A stretch of DNA of 64,000 bases, taken from positions 4,154,001 through 4,218,000 of the forward strand of contig NZ_JAJEJP010000001.1 of NCBI RefSeq assembly GCF_021390495.1, in the 5' to 3' direction. The position numbers and the translations under genes are program-made. Origin of the DNA: Paraburkholderia sp. ZP32-5 (GTDB taxonomy: Bacteria > Pseudomonadota > Gammaproteobacteria > Burkholderiales > Burkholderiaceae). Shown here one piece after another: positions 18,762 through 42,292 of this stretch. The notes below the pieces were generated by a model, which was not told the origin of the DNA, did no database searches, and worked only from the letters and a program-made list of their open reading frames with translations. Each line of letters opens with the position of its first letter. Position 1 is the first letter of the stretch.

Positions 18762-18842
18762 AAACAACATCCCGAACGAATGAATCGGGAAATCTTGCGG
18801 TAGACTCTCAGGCGAATAAGACCAAATGAAGAACCTGAGAAA

Positions 18843-22854: not shown

Positions 22855-23500
22855 CATCGCGAATCCCGTCGCATATACCGATGACTTGGATAGGTTGGTG
22901 CAGTCCAAGCAGAATGACGCGACGTTCACACATCAGCAATGGGGGCACGACGACCTCGCGCCGCTTCGCTCACACGTCCGCACGCACTATCGAAACGAAC
23001 AGAGGGCTATCTGCTCATTCTGCCGTGGACCGCTCGGCCTGCAGGCTGCGGAAAACTGCCAAGTGGAGCACATTGTCCCGAAGTCTATCCGTCCAGAGTT
23101 CATGTTTGAGCCGAAGAACCTGTGTGTGATATGCGCCGACTGCAACACCATCAAGCGCGACCAAGAAGTAACAGCCACCATCCCCAATACTGTGGCTCCC
23201 CGACGTGGACAACAACGATATCCACGCACGTCGAACGCCTTCCTGATTGTGCACCCGCATTTCGACATTTACAGCGAGCACGTTCTGATTCATCACGGTT
23301 TCTACGTCGACCGGTCGCCCAAGGGGAATTTCACTATCGGAGCGTGCAAGTTGAATCGTCGACTTCACGAGTTCGGGTGGGATGAAAATATTGTCGACAG
23401 ACCGACGCTCATGGAGGCGGCGCAGCAATATGTCAATTCAGAGCCTGGGGTCGACCGGCTTGCTGCCCTGCAGCGGCTGCGAGAGGAGGTTCTGCCATGA
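22847..23500 (+). CDS. ptuB: Septu HNH nuclease PtuB
   Basis: A 217-aa HNH endonuclease. A CxxC zinc pair (CSFCRG) is followed by Glu74-His75 in the VEHIVPKS segment, an Asn in the PKNLCVIC segment and a second CxxC (CADC). The start at ATG 22847 overlaps ptuA by 8 nt. In Septu this subunit is the DNA-degrading effector. The C-terminal part (FTIGACKLNRRLHEFG) is an added helical region. Gabija follows 43 nt later, so the two systems may share a transcript. Confidence 0.85.
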   Translation: MPDIANPVAYTDDLDRLVQSKQNDATFTHQQWGHDDLAPLRSHVRTHYRNEQRAICSFCRGPLGLQAAENCQVEHIVPKSIRPEFMFEPKNLCVICADCNTIKRDQEVTATIPNTVAPRRGQQRYPRTSNAFLIVHPHFDIYSEHVLIHHGFYVDRSPKGNFTIGACKLNRRLHEFGWDENIVDRPTLMEAAQQYVNSEPGVDRLAALQRLREEVLP

Positions 23501-23543
23501 CTGACACCGTCATAGTGCACACCTCCTACTCACCGGAGGCATA

Positions 23544-25268
23544 GTGGTCCGCATTCGCAAAATTGAAATCAAACACTTCAGGTCTATCTGCTCGCTTGAC
23601 TGGACTCCTGTCGACGGCATTAACTGCCTTATTGGTCCCGGAGATAGTGGAAAATCAACCATCCTCGATGCAATTGACCTGTGCCTTGGAGCGCGACGCA
23701 ACCTCAGTCTCGCCGATACGGACTTCTTTCAGTTGGACGTCACGCAAGACATCATCATCCAAGTTACGGTGGGGGCGCTACCCGACTTCTTGAAAAATAT
23801 TGAAGTCTACGGAGAGTATCTACGCTGCTTCGACGCCAATACGGGCGCTGTTGAGGACGAACCGCGCAAGAATACGGAGATTGTGCTGACGGTCCGCCTG
23901 ACGGTGAAGGCGGACCTTGAGCCAGTGTGGTCCCTTTATTCCGAGCGGACAGCCTCTGACGACCCACCCCGAATGTTGACTTGGAGAGAACGTACCAACC
24001 TAGCACCTTCGCGGCTAGGGCAACATCCGAACTCAAATCTGTCATGGACCAGAGGCTCCGTCCTGAACCGCCTGTCCGACGAGCGTGCGAGCATAGGCTC
24101 CGAGCTTGTAAGAGCTGCGCGAGAAGCGCGAACGGGCTTCGGAGCCAAGGCCGCGCCCCAGTTGGAGAATACACTCAAAGCCGTCACCGATACAGCCACC
24201 GCGTTGGGTGTCCCTGTCGGAAAATCTGCCACGGCTCTCCTCGATGCCCACTCAGTGTCGTTCGGCGATGGAGCGATTTCGCTACACAGCGAGGCAGGTA
24301 TTCCGCTCCGAAATCTTGGCACTGGGTCTTCGCGGTTACTGATTGCGGGACTAAATCGCAGGGCCGCAGAGTCAGCAAGCATCGTTCTCGTTGATGAGAT
24401 TGAGTATGGACTTGAGCCCCACCGACTAACTAGGCTCCTCAATTCGCTCGGTTCCAAGGAGCAGCCGTCGCCTCTACAAGCTTTCATCACAACCCATTCG
24501 CCCGTGGTGCTTCGGGAATTGGCGGGAACCCAACTCTTCGTGCTGCGCGAAACGGCGGGTGTACATCGTGCGCTACCGGTGGGCAATGACGACGATGTCC
24601 AAGGTGCAATCCGTCTTTATCCAGAAGCGTTTCTCGCCAGAACGGTTATCGTTTGCGAAGGCGCGAGCGAGATTGGCCTGATTCGAGGTATGGATGAATT
24701 CTGGGTGAAAAGTGGCTTCCCGTCTTTGCAGGCAGATGGAGTGTCCTACGTCGACACTGGTGGTGGCGACGCCGACCGCTGTTTTCATAAGGCTAAGGCT
24801 TTCCTCAAGCTTGGATATCGCGTTGCTGCAGTTCAAGACAACGACAAGACACCTACGGCTGCGCTCGTCAACGAATTCAAAGCATCCGGGGGCTACCATG
24901 TGGCCTGGAGAGATGGCAGAGCACTCGAAGATGAGCTTTTTGTGAGTCTCCCCGACTCCGCCGTCACACAACTCATCGAGCGAGCGTTGGAGCTGACCGA
25001 AGACGGCAAGGTGGATGAAAACATCAAGACCAAGTCGGACGGAAAAGTGAATCTCGGACAGATTCAGTTCGAGGGCTTGGTAAGCTCATATTCGCCTGCT
25101 ACACGAGTTGTTCTCGGAGCAGCCTCTCGCAGCCGAAAAGCCGGGTGGTTTAAATCGATATCCAAAATGGAAGGTGTAGCCCGGGACATACTCGGACCCC
25201 ATTTCGACGCGACGGATTCAGGTTTCACTGGCCTAATCGTCGACCTGTTTGACTGGGCAGCCTCGTGA
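23544..25268 (+). CDS. gajA: Gabija nuclease-ATPase GajA (OLD family)
   Basis: A 574-aa OLD-family protein with Walker A GPGDSGKST at residues 31-39, signature-like LGTGSSRLL, Walker B-like IVLVDEIEYGLEPHR and H-loop FITTHSP. A C-terminal Toprim nuclease domain has EGASE at residues 372-376 and a VQDNDKT metal motif. It starts at GTG 23544 with GGAGG 4 nt upstream. The next gene is an UvrD-like helicase overlapping at the stop codon, which together define Gabija. GajA nicks DNA when nucleotides are depleted during phage infection. Confidence 0.88.
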   Translation: MVRIRKIEIKHFRSICSLDWTPVDGINCLIGPGDSGKSTILDAIDLCLGARRNLSLADTDFFQLDVTQDIIIQVTVGALPDFLKNIEVYGEYLRCFDANTGAVEDEPRKNTEIVLTVRLTVKADLEPVWSLYSERTASDDPPRMLTWRERTNLAPSRLGQHPNSNLSWTRGSVLNRLSDERASIGSELVRAAREARTGFGAKAAPQLENTLKAVTDTATALGVPVGKSATALLDAHSVSFGDGAISLHSEAGIPLRNLGTGSSRLLIAGLNRRAAESASIVLVDEIEYGLEPHRLTRLLNSLGSKEQPSPLQAFITTHSPVVLRELAGTQLFVLRETAGVHRALPVGNDDDVQGAIRLYPEAFLARTVIVCEGASEIGLIRGMDEFWVKSGFPSLQADGVSYVDTGGGDADRCFHKAKAFLKLGYRVAAVQDNDKTPTAALVNEFKASGGYHVAWRDGRALEDELFVSLPDSAVTQLIERALELTEDGKVDENIKTKSDGKVNLGQIQFEGLVSSYSPATRVVLGAASRSRKAGWFKSISKMEGVARDILGPHFDATDSGFTGLIVDLFDWAAS

Positions 25269-26689
25269 TGCCTGAACCGGACCTGCTGACCCTCACGCGC
25301 GGAAGCATCACCGCGCCGGCCGGTTGCGGCAAGACCCAGCTGATAGCCGACAGCTTGCGGCGCCATTCTGACAGCAAGCCAATCCTGATTCTCACCCATA
25401 CGAACGCCGGCAAGAGAGCTCTCGAGGATAGGCTCGTTAAAGCGAAGACCGCACGGGATGCGTACCGCGTCGCGACTATCGATAGCTGGGCCATCCGGCT
25501 CATATCCAAGTTTCCGGCACGTAGCGGCCACGACCGTTCGATTGAGATGCTGAACAACCCGAACACGGACTATGCGGCCATTCGCGTGGCAGCGTGGACG
25601 CTTCTGGCATCAGATGCAATCAGCGATGCTCTGAAAGCGACCTACAGTCGGGTATTCGTTGACGAGTACCAAGACTGCACCCTGCCGCAGCATCACATCG
25701 TCAGTTGGCTCGCGCACGTTTTGCCAACGTGCGTTTTGGGAGACCCTCTTCAGGCAATTTTCAACTTTCGCGAGGCTACGGTCGACTGGGCGACGGACGT
25801 GCTGCGAATGTTTCCAGAGAGCAGAGAGCTTTCGACGCCTTGGCGATGGCGGAACGCCGGGGCAGAGCAGCTTGGAAACTGGCTACTCGACGCCCGCCGT
25901 GCGCTACTCGCTAGTCGACCAATAGACCTTCGCGGTGCCCCTGCTGAAGTCACATGGATGGCGCTGCCGGACGCGCCCGATGGCGCTCACCGAGTTCGTC
26001 TTCTGGCAGCACAAACAAAGGCGCCCGTACCTAACGGTTCCGTGCTCGTTATTGGTGACAGCACCAGTCCGAGCGGTCAGCGACTCGTTGCTTCGCAAAC
26101 ACCTGGCGCCACGACCGTAGAGGCGGTCGACCTGCGAGACTTGACGGCATTCGGACAAAACTTTGACCCTCAAAAAACAAACGCGTTGGAGACCTTCGTC
26201 GGCTTCGCTTCCGAATTGATGACCGGGCTTGGAGCCGCTCAACTGCTGCGACGCATTCAATCCCTCAAAAGCGGAACCGCCCGCAATGATGCGACCGCCG
26301 TTGAAGCGGCAGCAGTCGCATTTTCGTGCGCTCCCTCATTCGGTACGGCCGCGGCAGCGCTTCGAACATTCGAGGAGGGTGCGGGCGTACGAGTATTTCG
26401 ACCCGAGGCATTGCGTGTTTGCCTTACTGCCTTCGACATCGCAGCAAAAGAGGGATGTTCCCTACCCCTAGCGGTTGCTCGCGCCCGCGAACAAAACAGG
26501 CACTACGGCCGTCCACAGATTCGGAGGGCCGTTGGCAGTACGTTGCTTCTTAAAGGACTTGAAGCAGATACGGCTATCGTGCTCAACCCTTCGGACATGA
26601 ACGCGCGACACCTTTATGTAGCGCTCACTCGCGGAGCCAGGAGTCTGGTTATCTGCTCTCGGACACCCGTTCTTATCCCCACTCCTTGA
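25268..26689 (+). CDS. gajB: Gabija UvrD-like helicase GajB
   Basis: A 473-aa superfamily-1 helicase with Walker A APAGCGKTQ close to the N terminus and a DEAD-box-like VFVDEYQDCT. A motif III-like LGDPLQAIFNF and a C-terminal HLYVALTRGARSLV follow. The size and the TGATG overlap with gajA fit the Gabija pair, where GajB senses DNA ends and activates or cooperates with GajA. GTG 25265 is an alternative start one codon earlier. It converges with the minus-strand gene ending at 26730, with only 40 nt between. Confidence 0.87.
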   Translation: MPEPDLLTLTRGSITAPAGCGKTQLIADSLRRHSDSKPILILTHTNAGKRALEDRLVKAKTARDAYRVATIDSWAIRLISKFPARSGHDRSIEMLNNPNTDYAAIRVAAWTLLASDAISDALKATYSRVFVDEYQDCTLPQHHIVSWLAHVLPTCVLGDPLQAIFNFREATVDWATDVLRMFPESRELSTPWRWRNAGAEQLGNWLLDARRALLASRPIDLRGAPAEVTWMALPDAPDGAHRVRLLAAQTKAPVPNGSVLVIGDSTSPSGQRLVASQTPGATTVEAVDLRDLTAFGQNFDPQKTNALETFVGFASELMTGLGAAQLLRRIQSLKSGTARNDATAVEAAAVAFSCAPSFGTAAAALRTFEEGAGVRVFRPEALRVCLTAFDIAAKEGCSLPLAVARAREQNRHYGRPQIRRAVGSTLLLKGLEADTAIVLNPSDMNARHLYVALTRGARSLVICSRTPVLIPTP

Positions 26690-26729
26690 GCGTTTGACTC
26701 CGGAAACAAAAATCAGTATTCGCATCCGC

Positions 26730-28382
26730 TTACATCGACAGCCCGTGCGAAGGGCCATCCCGGGATATGCCCAGGATTTTTGCCCAACGCTCGCCCTCTA
26801 ATTCCATTGATTTGGTCAACGCGCGAGCGTTCTCGCCGATTGCCTGAAAAATCATGTAGGGAGGCAGCTCGGTTGAGACCAGGCCTGATTCCTCGCTCAG
26901 CCATTTAAACGCAGCCTTTACGCCATCAAACGATGCTGTCGCTCGGCCGCACAACGCTCCGGTTAGCAATGTCGGGAAGGATTCGCCCCACTCGCGCCAG
27001 TCAACGTCACAGCCAGCCGCCGTCCATTTGGTCGCGGATGTCTCATCGGCCCAACCATATCCTCGATTTATCGCCGCTTTAGACTTCGGAACTGCCACCG
27101 CGGGAATCGCAGCGAGACCGCAGTTGCGCACGGAAAGTAGCGCGTGCATACAGAAACTGCCGATGTCTGGTTGATGCAATTTTTCCAGGCACTGAAACTG
27201 CCGCACCCCGTCCTGCCAAACATCAATCTTATCCGTCTTCCGGTCGTCCCTCTTGAATTGGATAAAGGCAAGGCGCACGCGGACAGAATCACCAAACTTC
27301 GTGCAGAGCGCTAGCATGATGTCCGCGCCAGTCCTTGTCTCGGCCTTCTTATTGAGAAATGTCCCACGCACCGCGTGTACAAATCCATTGGGCAATCCGA
27401 GTGCAACGCACAAACTCGGACCCCAAGCCCGAATCTGTTGCTCCCACGCATTACACCAATCAATGGCGAACGCGTCCTCAGCATAACCGGCGCCGTACGC
27501 CTTCGCGTGGTAGTCGGTCGTTGCCTTGACTGCAGTCCAGAAGGTAATCCAGGCGTCTGGCCGGACGAAGCTTCTGGGCGTCACCGCTGCTCTGAACGCG
27601 ACCTGCAAGCGGTCTTGCGGGTCAGTAGCGGGTGGCTTCACCGCGGGTTTAAGTTGTCTCGTAATACCTTCTGCCGTTGCGAGTGCGTACGCGGTGCTAT
27701 CTGAGCCACTCAACTCGCTCGCACAGTTTGCCACTAGAAATTCACTGTGAATTTCTAGTGCTTTTTTTGAGATGCCTGCTTGGGCGACTCGTGTCGGCAA
27801 CTCCCTGCGTGCAAACTCTTGCAGTTCTCCGAGTTGCTGCGTCACATGAATGAGGTCAAGTTGCATGGCGCCGGTAGGGAGGAGCGGCTCTTGGTATTCA
27901 ATTCCAAGTGCATTGTTCCCGTGCTGCAAAATTGCCCCTGTATAGACCTGTTCCATGTCGCTCAGCTTGTTTTCGAGCTTTTTGATTTCGAGAAGACAGT
28001 TCGAGCTGACGTCGGATTGCTCTATCGTTTTGACAGCGCTTGGGCGATTGACTAGCTCGTATGCCTTGAATTCTGTTTCTTCCACCTCAATCTGCTTCGA
28101 GCGCTTACTCACTACATCCCGTTGCCGTTCCAAGGCTCGCGCATACTCTTTTCGCAGCCACAGACGGCTCCACAAAGTTTTTGCTTCAATCGACTTTACC
28201 AGACGAATGGCCTCTTTGAACTCTTGCAAGGTAGCTTCTTTCGAAGCGCTCAATTGAGGGTTGACCAGCCAGAACCCTTCCTCGAGAACGTCATCAACTG
28301 TGCCGTTGACAATCTGCTTTTCCAATTCAATCTTTAACTTATTGAGCGTTGTTGACAAACTTTCTACGTTTGGTAGGAGCAT
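26730..28382 (-). CDS. Unknown 550-aa protein: coiled-coil N terminus, nuclease-like C terminus
   Basis: I do not recognise a named family. Residues 1-150 are Glu/Lys-rich and look coiled-coil, with the stretch LENKLSDMEQVY. A helical middle follows. Residues about 335-380 read AVRGTFLNKKAETRTGADIML then FIQFKR. Asp354 and Gln375-x-Lys377 give a D...QxK pattern, as in variants of the PD-(D/E)XK fold. If so it would be a DNase. It is convergent with gajB and co-directional with five other unknown genes to its right. A role in anti-phage defence is inferred from neighbours only. Confidence 0.7.
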   Translation of the reverse strand: MLLPNVESLSTTLNKLKIELEKQIVNGTVDDVLEEGFWLVNPQLSASKEATLQEFKEAIRLVKSIEAKTLWSRLWLRKEYARALERQRDVVSKRSKQIEVEETEFKAYELVNRPSAVKTIEQSDVSSNCLLEIKKLENKLSDMEQVYTGAILQHGNNALGIEYQEPLLPTGAMQLDLIHVTQQLGELQEFARRELPTRVAQAGISKKALEIHSEFLVANCASELSGSDSTAYALATAEGITRQLKPAVKPPATDPQDRLQVAFRAAVTPRSFVRPDAWITFWTAVKATTDYHAKAYGAGYAEDAFAIDWCNAWEQQIRAWGPSLCVALGLPNGFVHAVRGTFLNKKAETRTGADIMLALCTKFGDSVRVRLAFIQFKRDDRKTDKIDVWQDGVRQFQCLEKLHQPDIGSFCMHALLSVRNCGLAAIPAVAVPKSKAAINRGYGWADETSATKWTAAGCDVDWREWGESFPTLLTGALCGRATASFDGVKAAFKWLSEESGLVSTELPPYMIFQAIGENARALTKSMELEGERWAKILGISRDGPSHGLSM

Positions 28383-28949: not shown

Positions 28950-29274
28950 TTTTTGGTCTCAATGCTCGATTGTCAGGTCGCCAACTCAAGGACGGCCTAT
29001 CCGGTTACCCGCCATTCATTTCGAGCAGGTCATCGACGAGCTTCATGTCCAAGGTTTGGATATTCGGCGCCTTCATACGTTACATATGGTCGCTGCGCGT
29101 TCGGTAATCATGCCGGTGTTTTTCGCCCCCCAATGCAAGCTGCCGTTCTTCTCGAGTCGAATCGTGGCAATCGAAGAAATTATGCCCGAACGCAAGCAGG
29201 GCATCGCAGTGTATCCCCTTTGCCGGCGATAGTGCCAGATGTGGTCGCCTGCGGGCATCGTCGCTGCCCGCTTT
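28950..29274. other. Gap of 325 bp, possible gene debris
   Basis: Only a 61-codon minus-strand frame (29073-29258) is open, with no convincing start or homology. The stretch would hold the promoter of the 28536-28949 gene and perhaps the remains of an older gene. Confidence 0.4.
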
Positions 29275-30858
29275 TCAGGATGCTGTCGCCATCTGATTCG
29301 GTCTCGCTCTCTCCATCAACTTCTCGTAGAACGGAGCGTAGACATCAAAAAGGTGAGCCGGCAGTTCTGGGCTCCGGTACGGTGCCTCGTTCAGTAGGTC
29401 GGACAGCAGCAAGAGACGCTTTTCCGGGATGCTTCGACGTCGCGTGTAGTCTTTAAAGAACATCGCGAATCCGCACCTTTTCAGCCGGACAGCCTCGATA
29501 AGCCGGTCGACATGGTCGATGCTTAGAATGTAGACCGGGTTTCCCGATGCGAAATGGTCTGCATTTGCCGTGAATAACTGGTCCGTCTCAGCCGCAAAAA
29601 GGTCACCGTAGGTGATGACGACCTTGTGTACGCTCGCGTTGGGGTAGGTCTTCTGTACAAAATCCTCGACGTTCCTCAGTTGTTCATCGGCCTTCTTCAC
29701 GGTTGCACTGAGCTTCGATGCGTAATCACGTGCTGTTCCTGCCGCAGGTAATGTGTGAGTCAAGGCCTTGTTCTTGACCTCGAGCAACACGACATCAGCC
29801 CCATCTAAAACTGCGAAATCGCAGCACTTGCCGTCGACCGAAAAACGGGTCCGAACTTGCCCTTCGTTCAGAATCTCAAGGCCAGTCAGACTGAGGCTAC
29901 GCCCGACATACTCTTCGAACAGTTTTTCGAAGCTCTGTCGAATCACGGGGCTCTCGCTGCGGCCGACGATGTCGCTCAACGCGTATCCGAGGTTGCGGTC
30001 GAGGCAGCAGCGCCCCCAGAAATACCAAGTGTTGTTGTCCAGACGTGTGAAGGGTGACCGATACAGAAGATTCGGCTGGAACCACTCATCCGAACTGACC
30101 TCGCCGTAGTGCTCCGCAGTCACCGGTCGGGGGACGAGCATCGTTTGATAAAATTTTTCGACGGGTGCTCGCCCAAAAATTCCGTGTAAGGCTACTCTGT
30201 ATCTCGGAGCCATGACGGTCGAAATATCTTCGAGTGAGTGTTTGCGAAAGAGGGTGGCAAGGCCGAGAAAGTCCATGGGCGGCATGCCCAAGCTCTCTTC
30301 GAAAAGACGGTAGAGATGGGAGCGCGGTTGCAGTTTATTGATGAGGTCAATCTGGCGCGCGAAGGGTCCTAGCTCCTGCTCTCGTTGATGCGGAATTTGC
30401 GGGAGAACCCACGACCTGAGCGCGAGGTGAAATGAGCGGCCCGGCCCGAATCCAGTGAAGGCAAGGTCAGCGAGCTTCCACGCCAAGTCAATACAGTACC
30501 TCAACTCTTGCCGTGTGATTGCCACGGAACTGTACATCCGTGGTTCATCGCGCAATACCCATACCGCGACGCGCTCGGCGAGCCATGGAGCATGTGGTTT
30601 CCCATCATCTGCCCTCGACTCCGCCCCGATGAACTGGGACAGTTGGTCCAAGACGCTAGCATAGGAAAACTTCCGGAGTCGGTTGCGGATTGGCCGAATT
30701 GCGTTGGCGTACGTCATGTGTTCCGTCGCTTTTCGCTTGTAGTACGGCCGTCGAAGTATCCAATGCGCTACGACTGAACTGTTCATGACCTGCACCGTCG
30801 GCTTTAAACAAGTGTCGACTACGAACGTCTTCAGGGAGCCGGTGTCATTCAACACCAT
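29275..30858 (-). CDS. Unknown protein with PD-(D/E)XK-like nuclease motif
   Basis: A 527-aa protein. The last 220 residues contain FEKLFEEYVGR, a strand with Asp347 (CCDFAVLD) and VVLLEVKNK with Glu360-x-Lys362. This matches the D...ExK core of the PD-(D/E)XK nuclease superfamily. The N-terminal 300 residues are helical and unassigned. The start is uncertain: ATG 30858 lies 24 nt after the upstream gene, while ATG 30717 (MTYANAIRP) would remove 47 poorly structured residues. It lies last in a run of four closely spaced minus-strand genes beginning with the STAND gene and may be its effector or accessory nuclease. Confidence 0.72.
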   Translation of the reverse strand: MVLNDTGSLKTFVVDTCLKPTVQVMNSSVVAHWILRRPYYKRKATEHMTYANAIRPIRNRLRKFSYASVLDQLSQFIGAESRADDGKPHAPWLAERVAVWVLRDEPRMYSSVAITRQELRYCIDLAWKLADLAFTGFGPGRSFHLALRSWVLPQIPHQREQELGPFARQIDLINKLQPRSHLYRLFEESLGMPPMDFLGLATLFRKHSLEDISTVMAPRYRVALHGIFGRAPVEKFYQTMLVPRPVTAEHYGEVSSDEWFQPNLLYRSPFTRLDNNTWYFWGRCCLDRNLGYALSDIVGRSESPVIRQSFEKLFEEYVGRSLSLTGLEILNEGQVRTRFSVDGKCCDFAVLDGADVVLLEVKNKALTHTLPAAGTARDYASKLSATVKKADEQLRNVEDFVQKTYPNASVHKVVITYGDLFAAETDQLFTANADHFASGNPVYILSIDHVDRLIEAVRLKRCGFAMFFKDYTRRRSIPEKRLLLLSDLLNEAPYRSPELPAHLFDVYAPFYEKLMERARPNQMATAS

Positions 30859-30882
30859 TGCCTCGCCAAAATTGGCCTCTCT

Positions 30883-31743
30883 TCAATACTCGCTGGTGAG
30901 CGACGGGGAAACCTTGAACCGCGGCAGATATGGTCCATGACGCACATGGTTCATTAGGCTCCAGTATGCAGACCGAGCGAACGAATGATTGCAATCCTCT
31001 GGGTATTTATAGTGATACCGGTGGTCCTCCCCAGGCTCCTGTGTGTACGATTGCAAGAACTCGTCAGCTAAATAGTCGTTGACTCCCCAAAGCAACTCGT
31101 TCAGCAGTTCGGCTATATAGCTTGAGTGATATGTGAAGATGTTAGTGTGGAACCATTCGTAGAAGCCTGGTAACGCTTTAAATCCATCTTCTGCACTAAT
31201 CTCAACACCGCTTCTCTTAAGTGTCTGAACAATTTTCTCTACGTTCGACTGAAGGCGCGAGAAGTTGTGCTTGGCAATATCCCCACAAATCTTGATGTAG
31301 CGAATCCTTTCTATGCGAACGTCCACTTGAACATCTATATCGCCGAACCAAACATCAGGGACGATGCAGTCAGCTTCAAGCCACGCCGAGAGCGAGTCAA
31401 GCGGCTTCTGTATGCGGTCGCTATTCCTCGCAAGCTTTGGCGCTGCGCATATTTGTCGCAAGTAAAACAAGAACGTGTAGTCGGTGGGACGACCAGCCTT
31501 GGGCGGTTTCTTCAAATTAAGGAAGCTGTCGTTTGCGCCGCGTTCGTTAGGCTGAGATAGAAAATCACCCAGTAAGATATTGAACAACCTCTTGTCATTG
31601 GGGTTGTCAAACATCAAAAGAACGTCGTCTGTTCGCTTGAGCTTGTTGAAAAATGCATAATTAACCATGCCTCCAAGCATTTCCCAAGCCGCCAGAAGGA
31701 CGATGGCCTCGTGTTCAACTTCGTTGAATTTTTCTGAACGCAT
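30883..31743 (-). CDS. Hypothetical 286-aa helical protein
   Basis: No named family recognised. The protein is mostly helical and rich in aromatic residues, with a segment KICGDIAKHNFSRLQ that recalls the conserved helix of HEPN-type proteins, although the strict R-x4-6-H motif is not present. HEPN proteins are common RNase effectors in defence loci, so this is worth testing, but the match is weak. It lies 91 nt after the 482-aa gene and 24 nt before the PD-(D/E)XK gene. Confidence 0.65.
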   Translation of the reverse strand: MRSEKFNEVEHEAIVLLAAWEMLGGMVNYAFFNKLKRTDDVLLMFDNPNDKRLFNILLGDFLSQPNERGANDSFLNLKKPPKAGRPTDYTFLFYLRQICAAPKLARNSDRIQKPLDSLSAWLEADCIVPDVWFGDIDVQVDVRIERIRYIKICGDIAKHNFSRLQSNVEKIVQTLKRSGVEISAEDGFKALPGFYEWFHTNIFTYHSSYIAELLNELLWGVNDYLADEFLQSYTQEPGEDHRYHYKYPEDCNHSFARSAYWSLMNHVRHGPYLPRFKVSPSLTSEY

Positions 31744-31834
31744 ATTTAGTGTTATCTGTCGGTAACATCAAGTCCGCGTCGTTCGCTACACGTCCTCGAT
31801 GATGCCGTTTCGCTTGATGTTCACCATAGGGCCC

Positions 31835-33283
31835 TTACGGAGCGTAAAGTATGCCGCAGCTGCTTTGCTCGGATGCAAACCTTTCGTAAGAGGCGGCGCG
31901 GCAATTTCGAGTAACCCACCAGAGGTAGAAGTCGCGATGGGCATCTTGCCCGGACGAGAAAGCTCTTAAGGCTGGTTCAGCAACGAGCGCGGTTCCGCAC
32001 AGTCCGCTCATATCGACTGGGTGGACCGGGTTCCATCCGGCATTCCAATAGCCTAGTGTTGCGATTGGTCCTTTCGCGCAAGAGATGCTAAGAGAGCCGG
32101 CGTTCGGCAGAATGGTGATAGGGCCTTCAACATCCGTGAGGACCGGATAGTGGAGCCGCGAAGGGTACAGGTCGCGCTGAAGGTATCCGAGGCGACTGAA
32201 TCTATACGTCGACGCGAGCGGCGCAGCATTGAACTCTTTGTCTAGTGTGTCCTTGCGTGTCAAAACAGGTAGGGATGTGACGCTCTGCAAACCGACCGTC
32301 TCGCAGCTTCCATATCCTCCTTCTAGTTGGATTCGGGAGAAACGCTCGACGAGACCTCGGGCATCTATCAAATTCTCATCGAAGTGCCGCCAACGAACAA
32401 CGGACAGCTCTATCACGCCAAGCGGGTCAACGTGTATGGGAGTCGACAAGGATAGCAGAACACGACCTTGTGCCAGTGACTGCAGCGAGCTGGCCAAGCT
32501 TTGAATATACGCGTCTATGGAAGCGTTATCTTGGGCAATATTTTCACTGAATGCCGGAAGCCACGACGGCCGAGACGGTCGCATGAACGCGAGCGTCGGG
32601 TCAAGAGGGAGCGCATCCAGCGCAAGGTGGTTGACTATGCCGGCGCGCAAGCGCCAAAACTTATGTGCGACAGCAAATGTCCGTTGGTAGGCGGAAGCCA
32701 CGCGAAGGAAATTTCGATTGGCGAAAGCCCCCGTAGTGTCGTCCCCAACGGGACGGACAAAGTGTCCCAAGTCGCCCTGGTAAGGGGCATGTGGAAAGCC
32801 ACCAGCAGACGACATCCATTCGTAGTTGCACTGCCGAACAAGCGGTAGTCTTAAATGTTGCTCTAGTTGCTGAAGACGGGTCAAAAAGAATCGTGGTACA
32901 TCCGCGCCTTGCATTTCGTCGAATTTAGTTGACTCTTGAAAGTCCGATGGAGCGACTCGCAGCGGAGGGTTCCAAGAATCATCCGACGGAAGGTCGCAAT
33001 CATTAAGTACGAGTGCGGCCAGCGTAGAGGGACGTTCGAGCATTGCCTTCAGTTCTGCCGGCAGGACAAAACCTCTGTTCTTTGCCATCCAGAAAATGAA
33101 CAGGATTTCGACTGCTTCAGCCTCGACGTTGCATGCTTTCAACTCTTGAAGCAGAACGTTTGTAACCTCTTCATGCGTCTCTGAAATCAGCAGCAGGGCA
33201 GCAAGCTCTTGCATTGCCCACCAGCGAGTTGATGCGACCGGCCATCGAAAGCGCGAGATAAGCATTGCAAGGTCGGAATTCAA
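31835..33283 (-). CDS. Unknown 482-aa partner of the STAND ATPase
   Basis: The start codon overlaps the stop of the 1467-aa STAND gene by 4 nt, so the two are translationally coupled. The N-terminal 100 residues look like a HEAT-like helical pair (WWAMQELAALLLISE...). The rest is a mixed alpha/beta region with no motif I recognise. No membrane segment or obvious catalytic residues are visible. It is best described as an accessory or second subunit of the upstream nuclease-STAND protein. I know of no established system with this exact pair. Confidence 0.75.
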   Translation of the reverse strand: MNSDLAMLISRFRWPVASTRWWAMQELAALLLISETHEEVTNVLLQELKACNVEAEAVEILFIFWMAKNRGFVLPAELKAMLERPSTLAALVLNDCDLPSDDSWNPPLRVAPSDFQESTKFDEMQGADVPRFFLTRLQQLEQHLRLPLVRQCNYEWMSSAGGFPHAPYQGDLGHFVRPVGDDTTGAFANRNFLRVASAYQRTFAVAHKFWRLRAGIVNHLALDALPLDPTLAFMRPSRPSWLPAFSENIAQDNASIDAYIQSLASSLQSLAQGRVLLSLSTPIHVDPLGVIELSVVRWRHFDENLIDARGLVERFSRIQLEGGYGSCETVGLQSVTSLPVLTRKDTLDKEFNAAPLASTYRFSRLGYLQRDLYPSRLHYPVLTDVEGPITILPNAGSLSISCAKGPIATLGYWNAGWNPVHPVDMSGLCGTALVAEPALRAFSSGQDAHRDFYLWWVTRNCRAASYERFASEQSSCGILYAP

Positions 33284-36200
33284 GCGCTAGCTCCTGTCAT
33301 CAACTGCTCGGCCCACGCAGGTCGCTCGAGTCGCAAAGTCCTCGTATCCTCCTGGACGCTACGAACCATTGTCTCCGCGAAGGCCACTGCTTCTGCGGTG
33401 CGGCCTAGTTGCCCCAAGAAAAACACCATGATGTCGGACGGAATAATCCGGTCGGATTTTGGTCCGAAAACGCCGAAAGCAGACTTGAGAAAAAATTCAT
33501 CGCCACGGCGCCGATACTTTGTTGCCACAACGCAAAGGCGGCTTTCGGTCGCTTTCCTGCTCTCAAAATACATAGGCCCCATCCATCCGCCGTTCATACG
33601 CTGAGCTTGTACGATATAGGGGAAGGCCGCTTTTGCTCCCTCGAGCTTCAGCTTCGTTGTGAACGCATCGTCGAGGAGCACAGCGAGGTCTCTGTCGCGG
33701 CAGTCAGATGACAGCAACAAAGGCTCTAGGTTTTGGATAAGGTCTGAGCCTTGACCCTGAGCTTCCCAATGGGCGTACCATTGCTTCAAGACTTCACGAC
33801 GAACACCATAGAGTTCTGCAAGGTCAGTCATAAGTCTGCTCAGCTCAGCGACGGCATATGTCCCTACGTCGCCTTTGAAAGGAGCAAACTCAGTTGGTGT
33901 GCCGCCTGATTCTGGTTTTGCAATCGCGCCGACGTCTCGGCCGACATGTTCGTTAGCCAAGTCACGCAGTTGCGTTGCGTTCTGGTTCTCCGACCCGGCA
34001 GTCTCCTGTGAGGCATCTTCGGCTTCTATTTGCAGGCCAGTTCTAGCGACCGCAGCAAGTGTGCGAGATATAGTCTCTGCAGTCGTCAGGTAGGTTCTAA
34101 GGCTCTTTTCAGCCTCATCCCATTGTCCTAGCTCGACGTGTTGCCTATGCTTTCCAGCAAGTGCTTCTCGATTCAACTGTGCGAGAAGTTCGTTAGCCTC
34201 AGCAATGACATGCCTCGTTCCCTTTCCGTCCGTATAAACGGAGACGCTCTGAACCTGAGGCGAGATTTCGTAGAGCAGTCGGCGTGCGTCATCGGGAGCA
34301 ATAGGCACAAGATAACTTATGGCATCCATCACATCAGGAAGGGCGGGGTCCTTTCGTTGGCCGTACCCCAGCACTAGCTCCCAAGTAACTCGGCAGAGTT
34401 CTCCGGCAAGCTTTGCGAGGCCATGCCGAAGTGACAGCTCACAGAGTTCTAGGAACACGCGCATCCTGGCCCCAGTTTCTTCTTCGACCTTGGCATTGCG
34501 CTCGTCTCGCTGTCGAAGAACAAATAGTTCAGCAGCATCGTCAGTGAGCACTTTGGCGAAATCCGAAGCATAGAGCGCGCGAAAATGGTCCGCATCAAAC
34601 CATGACAACCGCAATGCTTCCTCTACCTCATCAACGGTAACCAGTGGATTGCCGGATACCTGCGAATCTACTATCTTGATGTCGACCGCAAGCGCATTCA
34701 GGGCACGCCGGAAACTCGCAGCTCCGTCCCCTCGCTGGTAGTTGTTGTAATCCGGTACGGGAATAGACTCAAACGACTTATGGACACAGAGAAATGAGAC
34801 CGATTCGCCAGATAGCCAGCATTTGGCTACGTCTGATGCAACGTTTGTGAGGATGTCAAGGTAATCAGATACATTCTCACGGTCCTTGAAAATCGGTGTC
34901 TTGATAAAGCTAAAATCTCCACTGGCAACTGTCATGTGCAGGTGTACGGCGCCAAAGAACCAAAAGCGCGCGAGCTGTGTTAACGCTTCCTGTTTATAGT
35001 CATAGTGCGCATGCGACCAATCAGCCCCAGAGCCGCCGGCGAAGACCAGGATGTCTAGTCCATTCATCGCGCCTATGCACGCGGCCAACAGGCCGCAAGA
35101 CAGGTCTTGAAAATTGCTCCACGAGACAAGCTCGGCATCAACTAAAGTCGCGGCTCGAACTGCGGCATCGCATACCATGGCTTTCTGCTCACCCTCCGGA
35201 AGGAGGCTTGCTATCTCGACAAGTCCGCGGACATTGTCAGTATCGACATACGCCTCGACGACTTTTTCTCCGATTTCAAGGGAGTTCGACATGACAATTT
35301 CGGCGGCAGCTTCAGGCGTACTCCCGGCAACCCCCATGCCAACGAAGGTTCTCACGAGGTACTGTCTTTCCGCCCCTAACTCGTAACTCCAACGTTGGCT
35401 TACGAAACGGCTTTCGCCTCTGAATCGATGTAGGGCTTCCGTGGCACTCTTTCGTGCAGTACTGTGGTCACCCCGCGTCGAAAGAGCGCGACTCAGTGCT
35501 GCAAGGTCAAGGGTAGTTGTTTCATGTCGCGACGCGACGGCTTCCTCGATAACACTGACGTCTCGCGCAAGCGTCCATGTACAAGCTTTAAGGCGCACAG
35601 CGTCGGTTCCAGCCAGCTGGAAGGACAGGCCGTTTAGCGACCTCGTTTTCAGATGGCGGAGGCGATAGGCATCGGCGTAACGGGCACGGCAAACAGCGTG
35701 TTCCTCTGCGTCTGCCATGAGACTCTCGAACAGCTCAGTGGGGTAGCCTTCGCATAGTCGGTCGATAATCCAGTCCCTCTGCAGACCTTCGATGAGGTCC
35801 TCTGGGTGGCCTTGTTTTGCCTTCACAGACCACAACCAGTTAACCCGTAGGGCATTCGGCGCGTCATCGCCAAGCCAGCGCTCAACGAATGGCGCCAACG
35901 CTTTGACTCTAAGCTCATAGCCATCGGTCTGCTTGATAAACACGACCAAGCTTTCGTGAAATGGCTTGAGCCCCGCTGTCGAGCTGTAGAGCAGATGCAT
36001 GACAGCGGAGACTTCGGGTAGTGGCGCCCCCGCATTGCGCGCTATCTCAGTAAAACCATGCGCCGGCCAGAAGAACGGGAATTCGCAGACGAGCCTTAAC
36101 ACGTCCTTTTGGCTAGCCGAAAGTAAATTCCAGAGTGAACCATAGTATGTTTTTACATCCCTAGTCATATCTCCCAGGAGCTGCTCAACACTCCATTTCG

Positions 36201-37683
36201 ATAGTGGATGGTCTGAGCGAATCAGTTCTTCAGTCGCATATATGACGTGCAGTGGATGACCATTCGTACGCGCACGTACCCCAGCCGCAGCCGCCTGGAT
36301 TTCCTCTTCAAAGTTTGGGTGCTTTGGTTCTATCTTTAATCGACCTTGGTTCACCTGTTTCCGGATGTATTGAAGCACGGCGTCTGCTGACATTACCGGG
36401 AGTTCTTTCCAAGTGCTCCGAGGTGCGTCGGTAAGCAGGCGGGTCGGCAACTGTGCGTCTTCGACTGGTTGCGTTCCTACTACAACGACCAAATTCTCGA
36501 ATGCCGGCAGCACTTGATTGAAAATCTCGTCTAGCGGACGCTTGTCTTGGCCTTGGTTGCGCCAGACATGGTCAAGACCATCCAGAATGAGAACAAAGGG
36601 CTTTTTGTGCTTGTTGTAATGAGCTGCACATGCGGCGAGAGCGGCCCCCAAAGTTTGGTCAGGTACGCGAACGTCCGGATGAAAATTCTTGATTTGAGCG
36701 AGTAGAGATTCTTCGACGGCAAAACTCGTATGGCGGTCGAGCGACCGGTCCGTTGACGAGAGGTAGTAGTGGTGCCGCACCAAGGGTATGCCCTTCTTTT
36801 GCAACAGCTCGCATACCTTGCTAAGAAAGGTGCTTTTCCCGCGCCCCGGCGGTCCCGTCAGCACAATCGGTTCAGTCGGAACCGCTTCAATGGCGTTGAT
36901 GAATGATAGAAAAAACGCCGTGTCAGGTACGCGGTATCCGATTGGGATAGCAAAATTTTCGGGGAGCGGTTCGGGAGCCTCGAAAAGCAGGGTCTCGCGA
37001 AGCAGTTTGAGCGTAATCCAGCCGTCGGGGGAAGGTTGATTTTTCTGAATCGACCAGTGGATGGCTCGATTCTTGAGCGTCTCAACACCCTGAGGGGTTG
37101 AGTGGCGTCTGAGCCTAGCCGTGACGTGACTCTCGACACTTGCGAAACTCTTGTTGCTGTGACGAACTTCCAGCGCATCAAAAAGCTCTTTTGCATTGGA
37201 TGAACCGCCCAGCTCCTCAATCACTTGATGCTGGATTTCCGCAGGCGCTTTCGTATAATCAATGCGGTTGCCTCCGGCGAGACATGCTTCGAGGCTGGAA
37301 TCGGGTATCCGGTTTGTTAGCAGGCGAACATGCCCAACGCGGTTGCTCTCGATTTGCTTAAGCGCATCGAACCACTTCCTCAGGTTTGACCGAGATTTCC
37401 CTCCTTTCTTTCCTGGCCGTTCTAGCAACCACTCCCAATCCAACAAATGCTTTTCTTCTGCCGGGGTGAACTTGACCTGCCACAAGTCGACCTTCCCGTC
37501 AGGGCGCTCCGCAACAAGGTCATCGAGACCTTGAGGAGCAATCTCGTCTGCATCGCACTCGAAGCGAACTCGCGTATAGCGCGTGGGGGCATCGAGCCAG
37601 TCGCAAAGTAGATTGACGCCCTGCATCGTTTGATAAACGTATCCTGCAGCGGGAATAGCAGTGTTTTTAACGTGGGCAGCCAT
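33280..37683 (-). CDS. Large STAND NTPase with N-terminal Cap4-like nuclease domain
   Basis: 1467 aa. The N terminus (residues 1-75) reads GYVYQTMQGVNLL, then E42, D54-D55 and LWQVKF with Gln69-x-Lys71, the pattern of Cap4/Mrr-like PD-(D/E)XK DNases. The NTPase has Walker A GPPGRGKS (277-284) and Walker B FVLILDGLD (366-371), followed by a winged-helix-like region. The remaining 900 residues or so are helical repeats. This is the nuclease-STAND-sensor layout of Avs-type immune receptors, in which the repeats bind a phage protein and the nuclease then cuts DNA. I cannot assign it to a numbered Avs type. It is the first gene of a minus-strand operon. Confidence 0.85.
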   Translation of the reverse strand: MAAHVKNTAIPAAGYVYQTMQGVNLLCDWLDAPTRYTRVRFECDADEIAPQGLDDLVAERPDGKVDLWQVKFTPAEEKHLLDWEWLLERPGKKGGKSRSNLRKWFDALKQIESNRVGHVRLLTNRIPDSSLEACLAGGNRIDYTKAPAEIQHQVIEELGGSSNAKELFDALEVRHSNKSFASVESHVTARLRRHSTPQGVETLKNRAIHWSIQKNQPSPDGWITLKLLRETLLFEAPEPLPENFAIPIGYRVPDTAFFLSFINAIEAVPTEPIVLTGPPGRGKSTFLSKVCELLQKKGIPLVRHHYYLSSTDRSLDRHTSFAVEESLLAQIKNFHPDVRVPDQTLGAALAACAAHYNKHKKPFVLILDGLDHVWRNQGQDKRPLDEIFNQVLPAFENLVVVVGTQPVEDAQLPTRLLTDAPRSTWKELPVMSADAVLQYIRKQVNQGRLKIEPKHPNFEEEIQAAAAGVRARTNGHPLHVIYATEELIRSDHPLSKWSVEQLLGDMTRDVKTYYGSLWNLLSASQKDVLRLVCEFPFFWPAHGFTEIARNAGAPLPEVSAVMHLLYSSTAGLKPFHESLVVFIKQTDGYELRVKALAPFVERWLGDDAPNALRVNWLWSVKAKQGHPEDLIEGLQRDWIIDRLCEGYPTELFESLMADAEEHAVCRARYADAYRLRHLKTRSLNGLSFQLAGTDAVRLKACTWTLARDVSVIEEAVASRHETTTLDLAALSRALSTRGDHSTARKSATEALHRFRGESRFVSQRWSYELGAERQYLVRTFVGMGVAGSTPEAAAEIVMSNSLEIGEKVVEAYVDTDNVRGLVEIASLLPEGEQKAMVCDAAVRAATLVDAELVSWSNFQDLSCGLLAACIGAMNGLDILVFAGGSGADWSHAHYDYKQEALTQLARFWFFGAVHLHMTVASGDFSFIKTPIFKDRENVSDYLDILTNVASDVAKCWLSGESVSFLCVHKSFESIPVPDYNNYQRGDGAASFRRALNALAVDIKIVDSQVSGNPLVTVDEVEEALRLSWFDADHFRALYASDFAKVLTDDAAELFVLRQRDERNAKVEEETGARMRVFLELCELSLRHGLAKLAGELCRVTWELVLGYGQRKDPALPDVMDAISYLVPIAPDDARRLLYEISPQVQSVSVYTDGKGTRHVIAEANELLAQLNREALAGKHRQHVELGQWDEAEKSLRTYLTTAETISRTLAAVARTGLQIEAEDASQETAGSENQNATQLRDLANEHVGRDVGAIAKPESGGTPTEFAPFKGDVGTYAVAELSRLMTDLAELYGVRREVLKQWYAHWEAQGQGSDLIQNLEPLLLSSDCRDRDLAVLLDDAFTTKLKLEGAKAAFPYIVQAQRMNGGWMGPMYFESRKATESRLCVVATKYRRRGDEFFLKSAFGVFGPKSDRIIPSDIMVFFLGQLGRTAEAVAFAETMVRSVQEDTRTLRLERPAWAEQLMTGASA

Positions 37684-37933
37684 GGTCGACGAACGTTTGG
37701 TAAAGCTTGATTGTTAGCATCAAACTATCATGACGGTTTGCGGCATCATTGCGAAAATGCGTATAGCAATCTCGTCGATGAGAGGTTTATGGGAGACTGC
37801 CGCAGGACATAACGACCGGCAGATGATGGTTGGGAGGGCGGCCGAGGTGACTACGGTGGCTCTTCACCTTACTTTGTCGGTATGCGATTTGAATCGGTAG
37901 TTCAACATCATAGATGGCAAGCAAGAAAAAATC
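37684..37933. other. Divergent promoter region, STAND operon and 37934 gene
   Basis: A 250-bp AT-rich intergenic region between divergent genes. It must hold promoters for both; I see no strong palindrome or T-tailed hairpin. Confidence 0.5.
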
Positions 37934-38701
37934 ATGGACATAGTATCAGTTGCGATTGCTTCCGCAGCAGGAAGAATGCTGGTCGATAAAGCCAAGGATA
38001 TTGGTATTGACCTGTTAATTGATAAGTTCAAGGCGCAAGTTGTAAGTCGCTGGAGCAAACATCGAGCAGAGGTATTCTTGGCTCAGCTTCTCGACGAGGT
38101 TAGAAAGCAGGGCGACGAGAAGTTTGAGTCTGCAAATCTAAACGACCTGCTTGAAAAGTTAGCCGATGGCGATGCCGAGACGTCGCTGCTCTTTGATGCC
38201 TATCGGCGAGTTGCTTTGTGCGCAAGCAAGGACATCGGTCCGATGGTCATTGGCGTGCTTACGGCTGTCATACTGCGACGAGACTCCAGGGCGACCGATG
38301 ACGAGGAACAGATGTTCATGGCTGCTGAGACCTTGAATGACCGAGACTTCGTCGAGTTCATTGAATGGTTCGAACGCGCGCATGCAAAGACGCACAAGCC
38401 GACGCATCCGACGCTGCAATTACCCACGTTTCCTGGAGTTGTAGCTGTTGAGCATGTTACTGCGAAAGCAACTAGGAACACATTCACAAATGCCGACGTA
38501 CCGGTAAATCTTTTTTCTGACGTCGGGCCCTTTGCGCCGAAGCTCACTAACCTAGGAATCTTTGTCCAGTTTTCAAGGCCTGCTGATACTTCGAAAGGGA
38601 CAGCCAACACGAAGCGATATGTCGCAGCGACCCATGTGGCGACTCGGCTGTACGCGGTCGCCAAACGTGTTGCTTCAGCCACCACACCACTTTCGAAATG
38701 A
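37934..38701 (+). CDS. Hypothetical 255-aa protein divergent from the STAND operon
   Basis: No family recognised. Residues 1-30 form a glycine/alanine-rich, partly hydrophobic helix (VSVAIASAAGRMLVDKAKDIGIDLL). A helical region follows, then a C-terminal beta-looking segment. Similar small proteins sit near NLR-like and STAND genes in other bacteria, but I cannot document a functional link. It is transcribed away from the STAND gene and followed by gene debris. Confidence 0.6.
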   Translation: MDIVSVAIASAAGRMLVDKAKDIGIDLLIDKFKAQVVSRWSKHRAEVFLAQLLDEVRKQGDEKFESANLNDLLEKLADGDAETSLLFDAYRRVALCASKDIGPMVIGVLTAVILRRDSRATDDEEQMFMAAETLNDRDFVEFIEWFERAHAKTHKPTHPTLQLPTFPGVVAVEHVTAKATRNTFTNADVPVNLFSDVGPFAPKLTNLGIFVQFSRPADTSKGTANTKRYVAATHVATRLYAVAKRVASATTPLSK

Positions 38702-38774
38702 CTATTTGAGCAGTACTGCAGAGCTGAATTCGAAAAAAATCGCTCGTACGGCACGAAATGCTCAAGCCTTTCTC

Positions 38775-39014
38775 TCAAGCGGCAAGCCGGTGTTCGTAGT
38801 ACGGCCGGTCCTTATCATCGAGGATGGCGTACATCGCGTCCAGGCTTGATGCTTCCGGCTTCAGCCACGCTTCGATGTTCTCGGGCTTGATGGGGATGAT
38901 GCAGCGGTCATGGCCGGCCGCCTCAATCTCGCGCGGCGGCTCGTCGGTGATGGCTGCGAACGACAACAGGTCTGGCTCACCCGGCTTGGTCCATCGCGAC
39001 CACAAGCAGGCGAT
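38775..39014 (-). pseudogene. C-terminal fragment of a YedK/HMCES-type SRAP peptidase
   Basis: About 80 residues resemble the end of SOS-response-associated peptidases (SRAP): IACLWSRW, DLLSFAAITDEP and HDRCIIPI, followed by IEAWL. The His of HDR is the conserved active-site residue. The N-terminal part, with the catalytic Cys2, is missing. The frame continues upstream to 39122 as unrelated Gly/Ser-rich sequence, so the gene is truncated. In related bacteria such genes sit near DNA-damage genes, and an imuA fragment lies 1.5 kb away. Confidence 0.7.
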
Positions 39015-40565: not shown

Positions 40566-41018
40566 ATGGCCGCCTTGCCTCAACACGTCGAGTCGATTCA
40601 CCCAGCGCTCTGGCGCGGGGCGCAACTCGCACGTGCCCCTGGCAGGCCGGTGGATACAGGCTACGCAGCCCTTTCGGCCGAACTGCTCGGCGGTGGCTGG
40701 CCGCTGGACGCACTGGTAGAACTGCTGGTCCAACAACTAGGGGTAGGCGAGATGCGACTCCTGAAGCCGGCGCTCGCCAAACTGAGCGCGCGGCCGATTG
40801 CGCTGCTTCCGCCACCGCACGTGCTCAATTCGCTGGCGTTCTCCTATCTCGGCCTGCCAGTGGACCGGCTCATGAGATTGCGGGCACCGAAGACGGCGGA
40901 CGCACTCTGGTGCGCGGAGCGCATGCTTCAGGCGAAGAGTTGCGGCGCCCTCATCCTGTGGCAGCAGCATATCCGGACCGAGGCGCTGCGGCGATTGCAC
41001 CTTGCGGCTCAGGCATCC
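40566..41018 (+). pseudogene. imuA: imuA, 3'-truncated
   Basis: The first 150 residues or so match ImuA, the RecA/SulA-like partner of the ImuB-DnaE2 error-prone polymerase: HPALWRG, ELLGGGWPLDALVELL, RPIALLPPPH and LILWQQHIRTEALRRLHLAAQA. Homology ends at about 41018, where an unrelated HU-like sequence begins. The frame then runs on to 41096 with a foreign tail. ImuA is normally about 230 aa, so the last third is missing. imuB and dnaE2 do not follow. The LexA box is intact, so a truncated SOS-induced protein could still be made. Confidence 0.8.
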
Positions 41019-41020
41019 TC

Positions 41021-41242
41021 GCAGCTTTGGAAGATACTATCCTCCGCGCTGTCCACAAGAAGGGTGCTGGTGAGTTCACGCTCTCTGGGTTACTGAAGAT
41101 TGCCGTGCAGCAAGTGCCGGCCAAGAAAAAGCGCCTCGGCAAGGCCCCGTTCACGGGTGAGGAGCGCTGGTTTGACGCCAAGCCGGCGAGCGTACGCCTG
41201 AAAGCGCGCCCGCTGAAGAAGCTGAAGGACGCAGCAGCATAA
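41021..41242 (+). pseudogene. C-terminal fragment of an HU-like DNA-binding protein
   Basis: In the frame of 41021-41242 the sequence reads AALEDTILRAVHKKGAGEF, then VPAKKKRLGKAPFTGEERWFDAKPAS and KARPLKKLKDAAA. This is the Lys-rich DNA-binding arm and C terminus of HU-family proteins with an extended basic tail, common in Burkholderiales. The N-terminal dimerisation helices are absent, replaced by the imuA fragment in another frame. It keeps its terminator, so it is a recombination scar joining two host-type genes. Confidence 0.75.
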
Positions 41243-41265
41243 CCGCCGCGTTGCTGGATTAAAAG

Positions 41266-41353: not shown

Positions 41354-42292
41354 CTAAGTTTCAATCCTGTTTTCTTCCAAGCGCTTGTCGCCAGTGTCGC
41401 CTTGCGCGATTTGATGAGATTTTTCATCAAGACCTTCGAAGAACTCTTCGTCGTGAGGATACTTCTTCGCAAGCACGCCCCAAATCATGCTGTCACGAAG
41501 GTCATGACGGTCTTCTCCGTAATGTGCCTGCCGATGGTCATCTGCGCAAATAGCGATTACATTCCGTTCGTCGTCTGCTCCGCCGCAATTCAGCGGGATG
41601 ACATGGTGCGCCTCCAGGTAATACGCGCCGCTCGCCGTCACAAAGCCCTTCTTTCCGCATAGCTCACAGTTCCCATCTGCAGCTCGCAGCTTCGCCGCGC
41701 GGACCACGGCCGAATCACGCTCGTAAATGGCAGTGGCGGTGGCCGGAGCAACTGACTTCTTGGTGGGAACGGCAGGTGCAACGGACAATCTAGCTCTGCG
41801 CAGCTCTTCATACTCTTGGTCTTCGGCATAAGGGTCGAAGTCGACGGGCTGTGGCTTGCCGCGGATAACGACAATCCGTCGGTCTTCATTTCGGTGATGC
41901 GGGTACCAGAGGACAGGGTCCAACTCGCGCTGATGTGCCTCGCTCGTCTCCCGCAGCCCTTTCCTACGTCGTACTCCATCAAGAATCGCCACACGAATCG
42001 GCTGCTTTCGGTAGTAAGCCTCTACCATCAACGCCGATACCGCATCCGCGCGATTCAATTGAACCGGAGTAGCAGTCGCGATATTTTCTTGCGCCCAGTC
42101 CGAGGCGCTGTCGATGAATGAAATCTCATCGCCATCCTCATTCATACCGTCGTGCCAGATGTTGACCAGATAGGGACCACCTTCGCCTTTGAAGCACCAA
42201 TCATACTGCGTCGTCATGGGGACACCGACCTTCTCTGCGATGTCGCGGACCAGTTGCTTCGTAACGGGCTTCAGGTCTACCAAAGTTGTCAT
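41354..42292 (-). CDS. HNH endonuclease (McrA-like)
   Basis: A 312-aa protein. The C-terminal HNH nuclease has CELCGKKGF (first zinc pair), LEAHHVIPLNCGG (catalytic His), RNVIAICADDHRQAHY (Asn and second zinc ligands). The N-terminal 170 residues are a separate domain (PYLVNIWHDGMNEDGD, RVAILDGVRRRKG) that probably recognises DNA, possibly modified bases as in McrA-type restriction enzymes. No methyltransferase gene is adjacent, which fits a modification-dependent or orphan enzyme. The region on either side is decayed, but this frame is intact. Confidence 0.8.
   Translation of the reverse strand: MTTLVDLKPVTKQLVRDIAEKVGVPMTTQYDWCFKGEGGPYLVNIWHDGMNEDGDEISFIDSASDWAQENIATATPVQLNRADAVSALMVEAYYRKQPIRVAILDGVRRRKGLRETSEAHQRELDPVLWYPHHRNEDRRIVVIRGKPQPVDFDPYAEDQEYEELRRARLSVAPAVPTKKSVAPATATAIYERDSAVVRAAKLRAADGNCELCGKKGFVTASGAYYLEAHHVIPLNCGGADDERNVIAICADDHRQAHYGEDRHDLRDSMIWGVLAKKYPHDEEFFEGLDEKSHQIAQGDTGDKRLEENRIET

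Follow-up and report, generated by a model that had tools for sequence, protein, structure and literature searches.

A putative split Avs3-like antiphage receptor in a defense island of Paraburkholderia sp. ZP32-5

A pair of overlapping genes in Paraburkholderia sp. ZP32-5 probably encodes the two halves of one split Avs3-like antiphage receptor. The pair lies in a stretch of 64,000 nucleotides, referred to as the window (contig NZ_JAJEJP010000001.1, positions 4,154,001 to 4,218,000), of a 9.09-Mb genome. It consists of a 1467-aa protein and its 482-aa partner, which we call STAND and PART throughout. By sequence and modeling, a predicted Cap4-like nuclease and a NACHT switch are present in STAND, and PART shares its fold and position with the C-terminal region of Avs3. 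The best reading is that PART is a detached C-terminal sensor domain and that the Cap4-like DNase is the effector. The two proteins belong to an Avs3-like receptor family that is split in the window, fused in many relatives, and missed by the profile library used here (PADLOC release 2.0.0 of 2023).

STAND and PART as a two-gene unit

An earlier note, made from the nucleotide sequence alone, had proposed a defense operon led by a Cap4-like nuclease-STAND protein with helical repeats and a partner protein. The analysis supports a protein of this kind, together with a partner that is conserved, within a defense island. The coordinates of the open reading frames (ORFs) bear out the note's four minus-strand genes with their sizes, the 4-nt overlap of STAND and PART, and the spacings of 91 nt between PART and the 286-aa gene and 24 nt between the 286-aa and 527-aa genes (Table 1). 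The residue positions that it named are also correct, both in STAND (D54, D55, Q69, K71, Walker A from 277, and Walker B D368/D371) and in the 527-aa protein (D347/E360/K362). In 27 of the 28 aligned STAND proteins, the window's included, D54, D55, Q69, and K71 are unchanged; the one exception (L041) has its 5' end broken by an insertion sequence. K283, S284, D368, and D371 are kept in all 28. Because of this conservation, the nuclease and Walker residues are more than a chance pattern. The NACHT domain matches Pfam PF05729 (4.8e-13; 49.7 bits versus a cutoff of 26.7), and the PADLOC LmuA profile matches STAND residues 6 to 173 (4.4e-7). The proposed 900 or so residues of helical repeats stand at least for residues 748 to ~1465 in the model of a fused relative (L004), which are helical except for isolated bridges; residues 444 to 747 and the window's own repeats lie outside the modeled part.

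We scanned GTDB with an alignment-based search of one genome per species, using two short peptide patterns, and found at least 31 loci with a PART relative, a lower bound because the scan relies on those patterns. A contig scan with the single PART sequence gave no match, whereas the alignment scan gave the 31 loci. Loci reach up to 10 kb on each side of PART, and several end at contig ends. Of the 31 loci, 26 match nearly all of PART, and in 25 of these a STAND relative is directly upstream on the same strand or fused, with both proteins in one ORF in L004, L015, L026, and L027. The 26th (L017) retains only a 53-residue STAND remnant. Among the 25, contig ends cut L003, L011, and L015, and ORFs are fragmented in L008 and L010 (STAND) and in L025 (PART). 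The five remaining loci comprise L031, where STAND is present and PART is cut by a contig end, and L020, L028, L030, and L032, which hold PART pieces without a STAND match. At almost all loci examined, the 482-aa gene is thus accompanied by the STAND gene or even fused to it, the co-occurrence that the earlier note had suggested as a check.

The same pairing is found on plasmids. In PLSDB, STAND is matched in 26 records and PART in 15; at least 80% of STAND lies in one place in 13 of the 26 records, and PART adjoins it in all 13. In another two records with PART (CP052288 and Piscirickettsia NZ_CP039222), STAND is present as broken or displaced pieces. Plasmid pMOL28 of Cupriavidus metallidurans CH34 is among the natural carriers of the pair. 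A distant Roseibium locus (L053) encodes a 465-aa protein whose gene overlaps the STAND gene and which scores 135 bits with the PART profile, despite being absent from the tblastn list. The family is rare, occurring in 3 of 399 genomes of the order Burkholderiales and in 3 of 369 at the class level (the window's own genome counts in both), and its members come from Burkholderiales, Pseudomonas, Acinetobacter, Klebsiella, and others, as well as from plasmids. Phage records searched with STAND only gave no match, and neither PART, STAND, the 527-aa protein, nor the 286-aa protein had a relative in viral contigs; these are weak negatives that depend on a few short patterns. The name "multidrug DMT transporter permease" is attached to PART in 4 of the 27 protein hits, most of which are unnamed, and in 7 of 15 plasmid rows; neither the structure model nor the neighbors support it.

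The plasmid records bear on a different role, in which the locus would guard against plasmids or other mobile DNA instead of phages. The system itself rides on plasmids (the 15 PLSDB records), and any DNA could be a target of a Cap4-like nuclease. However, the neighbors in the window are known defense systems, and Avs relatives respond to phage packaging proteins according to PMC12724215 and PMC12931631, and we give this role little credence.

Relation to Avs3 and proposed mode of action

The link between PART and Avs3 is structural. The PART model (predicted local distance difference test [pLDDT], 86.4; predicted template modeling score [pTM], 0.89) matches Avs3 residues 1550 to 2078 along the whole length of PART. 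The last 1,200 residues of the modeled fused relative match Avs3 residues 735 to 2087 collinearly, with 949 residues aligned, and the models thus point to the Avs3 fold of helical repeats followed by a C-terminal domain. At the sequence level, hhalign comparison of 24 fusions with nine Avs3a proteins (L055 and L057 to L064; 2,017 to 2,159 aa) gave a probability of 90.7 (E value, 1.3e-6; 840 columns), versus 0.26 for the reversed alignment. When compared slice by slice with the Avs3a counterparts, the nuclease reached 43%, NACHT 74%, the repeats 1.7%, and PART 0.6% (0.1% with a larger PART alignment), with reversed controls at 0.0 to 0.4% and the reversed nuclease slice at 0.4%. Because of these slice results, we place the sequence link to Avs3a in the nuclease and NACHT, with the repeats and PART linked by structure only.

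PADLOC matched 13 families on the 24 fusions at E values up to 1, Avs3a not among them, and gave no Avs3a match to the window STAND protein at 0.1. PART had no match in PADLOC at 0.1, in Pfam or NCBIfam at 1, or among PDB sequences at 10, and STAND had none among PDB sequences at 0.01. Other Avs types, such as Avs4, were not among the structure matches listed, which does not imply their absence. The earlier note had called the partner foreign to the Avs systems; this stands by gene list and falls by structure, where the counterpart of the partner is Avs3's C-terminal part. Avs3b was considered as an identity for PART (hhalign, 0.27%) and for the 286-aa protein (0.17%) and was rejected for both. 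A cut-short Avs3a relative is present elsewhere in the window's own genome (L056, G000:C3:733267-735264), with an 837-aa open frame covering profile positions 1353 to 2019 of 2090.

Natural fusions join the two proteins into one chain. Among the best 120 of 312 STAND relatives found in a protein search, 22 are STAND-PART fusions of 1,812 to 1,972 aa. In a tree built with FastTree from 147 STAND rows (28 fused), the fused label needs at least 10 changes even when only well-supported branches are trusted, a count to be read against several long branches and "split" rows that were not all checked for a neighboring PART gene. Across 34 pairs, for which 16 of the 22 fusions were used, the correlation between STAND and PART distances is 0.985, and 0 of 2,000 permutations were as high; joint transfer of neighboring genes would give this correlation too. 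Between the window and the closely similar block of Caballeronia catudaia (L002), PART has 72.6% amino acid identity, whereas the other block genes have 85.4 to 95.3%, and its nonsynonymous rate (dN) is 0.173 versus 0.023 to 0.082 for its block neighbors. The ratio of this to the synonymous rate (dN/dS) is 0.214 in PART, the highest among the five block genes. Because this ratio is below 1 and dS is also highest in PART, we rejected positive selection and claim only that PART is faster changing, which would fit a ligand-facing part.

These observations also bear on whether PART could instead act as a regulator or an inhibitor, keeping the nuclease-STAND protein inactive until infection. As with many guard or antitoxin partners, PART is encoded by a separate gene overlapping that of STAND, and sequence change faster than that of its neighbors fits any arms-race surface. 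However, the natural fusions and the collinear match to Avs3's own C-terminal region speak against this explanation, and we consider it very unlikely.

Under the split-receptor reading, a mode of action can be proposed from the Avs proteins, which, according to PMC12724215 and PMC12931631, bind conserved phage packaging proteins (the large terminase for Avs1 to Avs3 and the portal for Avs4). The same papers describe a C-terminal sensor and ATP-dependent assembly for Avs2 and report that the nuclease of Avs1 to Avs4 cuts phage and host genomes. PART would dock on the end of the STAND repeats, and the repeats and PART together would grip a conserved phage protein, by analogy most likely a DNA-packaging part such as the large terminase; we place a terminase-type ligand a little short of an even chance. 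Ligand binding would then lead NACHT to bind ATP and drive assembly, which would switch on the Cap4-like nuclease, so that DNA is cut and infection is stopped. Arrest of infection would probably cost the cell, making this a switch of the suicide type.

Avs-type receptors are mostly known as giant single-chain proteins, in which the loss of the sensor tip is hard to distinguish from damage to the protein as a whole. A form that is split by nature and has many fused sisters is a ready-made test of the tip, as PART can be added or omitted, swapped, or supplied in trans.

Downstream genes and genomic neighborhood

The earlier note had joined the 286-aa and 527-aa genes with STAND and PART into one antiphage locus with two nucleases. 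The four genes share a strand, with the short gaps given above, and a 9.8-kb block in the window is 85% identical to Caballeronia catudaia DNA (L002); similarity stops at both ends except for a 230-bp match at 41018 to 41247. Because similarity is bounded, the window genome and L002 have the four genes, together with a divergent 255-aa gene, in a common block. In Paraburkholderia kururiensis, the STAND and 286-aa matches both list a contig of the same length, 4117855, with their spacing not seen. However, relatives of the 286-aa and 527-aa genes are both present in only 1 of the 31 PART loci, and other loci have different neighbors, such as the ~1260-aa gene described below. A 527-aa relative with 73% identity occurs in a same-genus genome (G255) without a STAND, PART, or 286-aa match in the surrounding 15 kb. 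Similarly, 286-aa relatives are found in 8 plasmid records, and in all 4 of those that were opened the relative is near AbiV, AbiE, VapBC, or integrase genes, with no match to STAND, PART, or the 527-aa protein. Separation of the four genes in other genomes, which the earlier note held would speak against its proposal, was found in part: STAND and PART stay together, and the 286-aa and 527-aa genes occur without the others. A four-gene system is therefore highly improbable, and the best explanation is that the 286-aa and GapS1-like 527-aa genes are separate island cargo that happens to sit downstream.

The 527-aa protein matches NCBIfam NF047931 at 4.3e-42; because its 144.5 bits fall below the cutoff of 320, it is a GapS1 relative and not a named member. 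It has no match among PDB sequences at 1. The 286-aa protein has 171 relatives, the best 120 of which are mostly unnamed, and the named ones among the matches listed come from Burkholderiales and other, mostly alphaproteobacterial, Pseudomonadota. When 399 order-level and 144 same-genus genomes were searched, the gene turned up only in its own genome. The motif of HEPN RNases is R-x4-6-H. We considered the 286-aa protein as such an RNase, since R146 and H159 are kept in at least 97% of 31 rows, but their spacing is unlike the motif, which makes this identity doubtful.

Table 1. Coordinates of the locus, its domains, and neighboring defense genes in the window
Feature	Position	Strand	Basis or remark
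STAND gene, 1467 aa; Cap4-like nuclease, NACHT NTPase, helical repeats	33280..37683	-	ORF call, PADLOC, Pfam, alignment
Putative Cap4/LmuA-like PD-(D/E)xK nuclease region, ~residues 1-240, D54/D55/Q69/K71	36964..37683	-	PADLOC LmuA and motif conservation
NACHT domain, residues 272-443; Walker A 277-284, Walker B with D368	36355..36870	-	Pfam PF05729
Helical-repeat region, ~residues 641-1467, approximate start	33283..35763	-	Model of fused relative L004
STAND/PART stop/start overlap, 4 nt, TTGA on coding strand	33280..33283	-	Fused relatives continue here as one frame
PART gene, 482 aa, TTG start; helical first half, beta-rich second half	31835..33283	-	Model; read as detached C-terminal receptor domain
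286-aa gene, separable island cargo	30883..31743	-	Genomic contexts of relatives
527-aa GapS1-like gene, D347/E360-x-K362, separable	29275..30858	-	NCBIfam NF047931
Block common to window and Caballeronia catudaia (L002)	29006..38794		85% DNA identity, similarity ending on both sides
Divergent 255-aa gene within shared block	37934..38701	+	Sole family match a marginal LmuA score of 0.039 (PADLOC, Pfam, NCBIfam)
ietAS	17715-21380		Defense island
PtuA-type ATPase	21487-22854		Defense island
GajA and GajB (Gabija)	23544-26689		PADLOC
550-aa gene	26730-28382		Within dense defense island 17715-28382; no family assigned
HNH protein resembling type IV restriction enzymes	41354-42292

Other features of the window include a TsiV-type type VI secretion system immunity protein at 12106 to 13239 (PF11876, 3.5e-68), a 1004-aa protein at 50838 to 53852 with an rve integrase core (6.6e-9) that is possibly part of a transposition module, and a tRNA-Arg at 56425 to 56500.

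At other loci, a family of ~1260-aa proteins is encoded beside STAND-PART in eight cases, upstream of STAND in L005, L006, L008, L019, L023, L025, and L029 and downstream of PART in L009. In L005 and L029 the gene runs 8 nt into the start of STAND, and in L019 a 94-aa ORF lies between the two. The family has marginal scores against Upx (0.0081 to 0.062) and is possibly an optional third component. Two genes of another family, L009:3959-5527 (522 aa) and L014:4055-5578 (507 aa), also overlap the STAND start by 8 nt; one of these proteins has a weak Mrr_cat match, and the 94-aa ORF of L019 is related to this family. In Undibacterium baiyunense (L021), a full Avs2 gene (L021:800-5281) lies 289 nt upstream of the STAND-PART pair. 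A bolder proposal would draw much of this together into a two-chain NLR-like (nucleotide-binding leucine-rich repeat) receptor, whose separate, faster-changing, ligand-reading tip is exchangeable or shared in trans between STAND proteins, with at least 10 switches between one and two chains and the ~1260-aa protein as a third, optional subunit; as a whole we regard it as unlikely.

Comparison with known systems

The profile searches that the earlier note had suggested gave a mixed outcome with PADLOC: STAND has partial LmuA and Avs1b matches and none to Avs3a, and PART and the 286-aa and 527-aa proteins have no family at 0.1, hence no Avs1 partner genes are among them. The Avs1b model (AVAST type I) is the best sequence match of the NTPase region, hitting 18 of 24 fusions at E values up to 1 (best, 1.1e-12). 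However, the best match spans only ~320 of 1,924 profile positions, and the matched part is far from full length, with residues 349 to 587 of the window STAND or 346 to 682 of a fused relative. LmuA of Lamassu shares the N-terminal Cap4-like nuclease (17 of 24 fusions at E values up to 1; best, 3.8e-8), but the rest of STAND is unmatched by it. Lamassu requires the SMC-type LmuB, and PADLOC and Pfam found no SMC-type gene among the four. GapS1 is represented by the 527-aa gene, which matches NF047931 over residues 57 to 484 but lies outside the core STAND-PART unit.

bNACHT25 and bNACHT32 have the same nuclease-NACHT-helical layout, and STAND has their central NACHT module. The passages of PMC12169576 consulted describe a DNase effector whose nuclease is required for defense, and no separate C-terminal partner. 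We found no split Avs receptor in the titles and abstract openings of the literature searched, which is not a claim of absence from print.

Avs3 (Avs3a) remains the closest comparison. It is a single chain of 2,017 to 2,159 aa, whereas the window pair sums to ~1,950 aa in two genes. In 7 of the 8 plasmid records that were opened, Avs3a has another small gene behind it, which bears the name avs3b in two of them, whereas the window locus has no Avs3b-like gene directly downstream. Because it differs from Avs3 in chain number, profile score, and the Avs3b neighbor, we call the family Avs3-like and not Avs3, although both have a Cap4-like nuclease, a STAND NTPase, long helical repeats, and a C-terminal domain in the same order.

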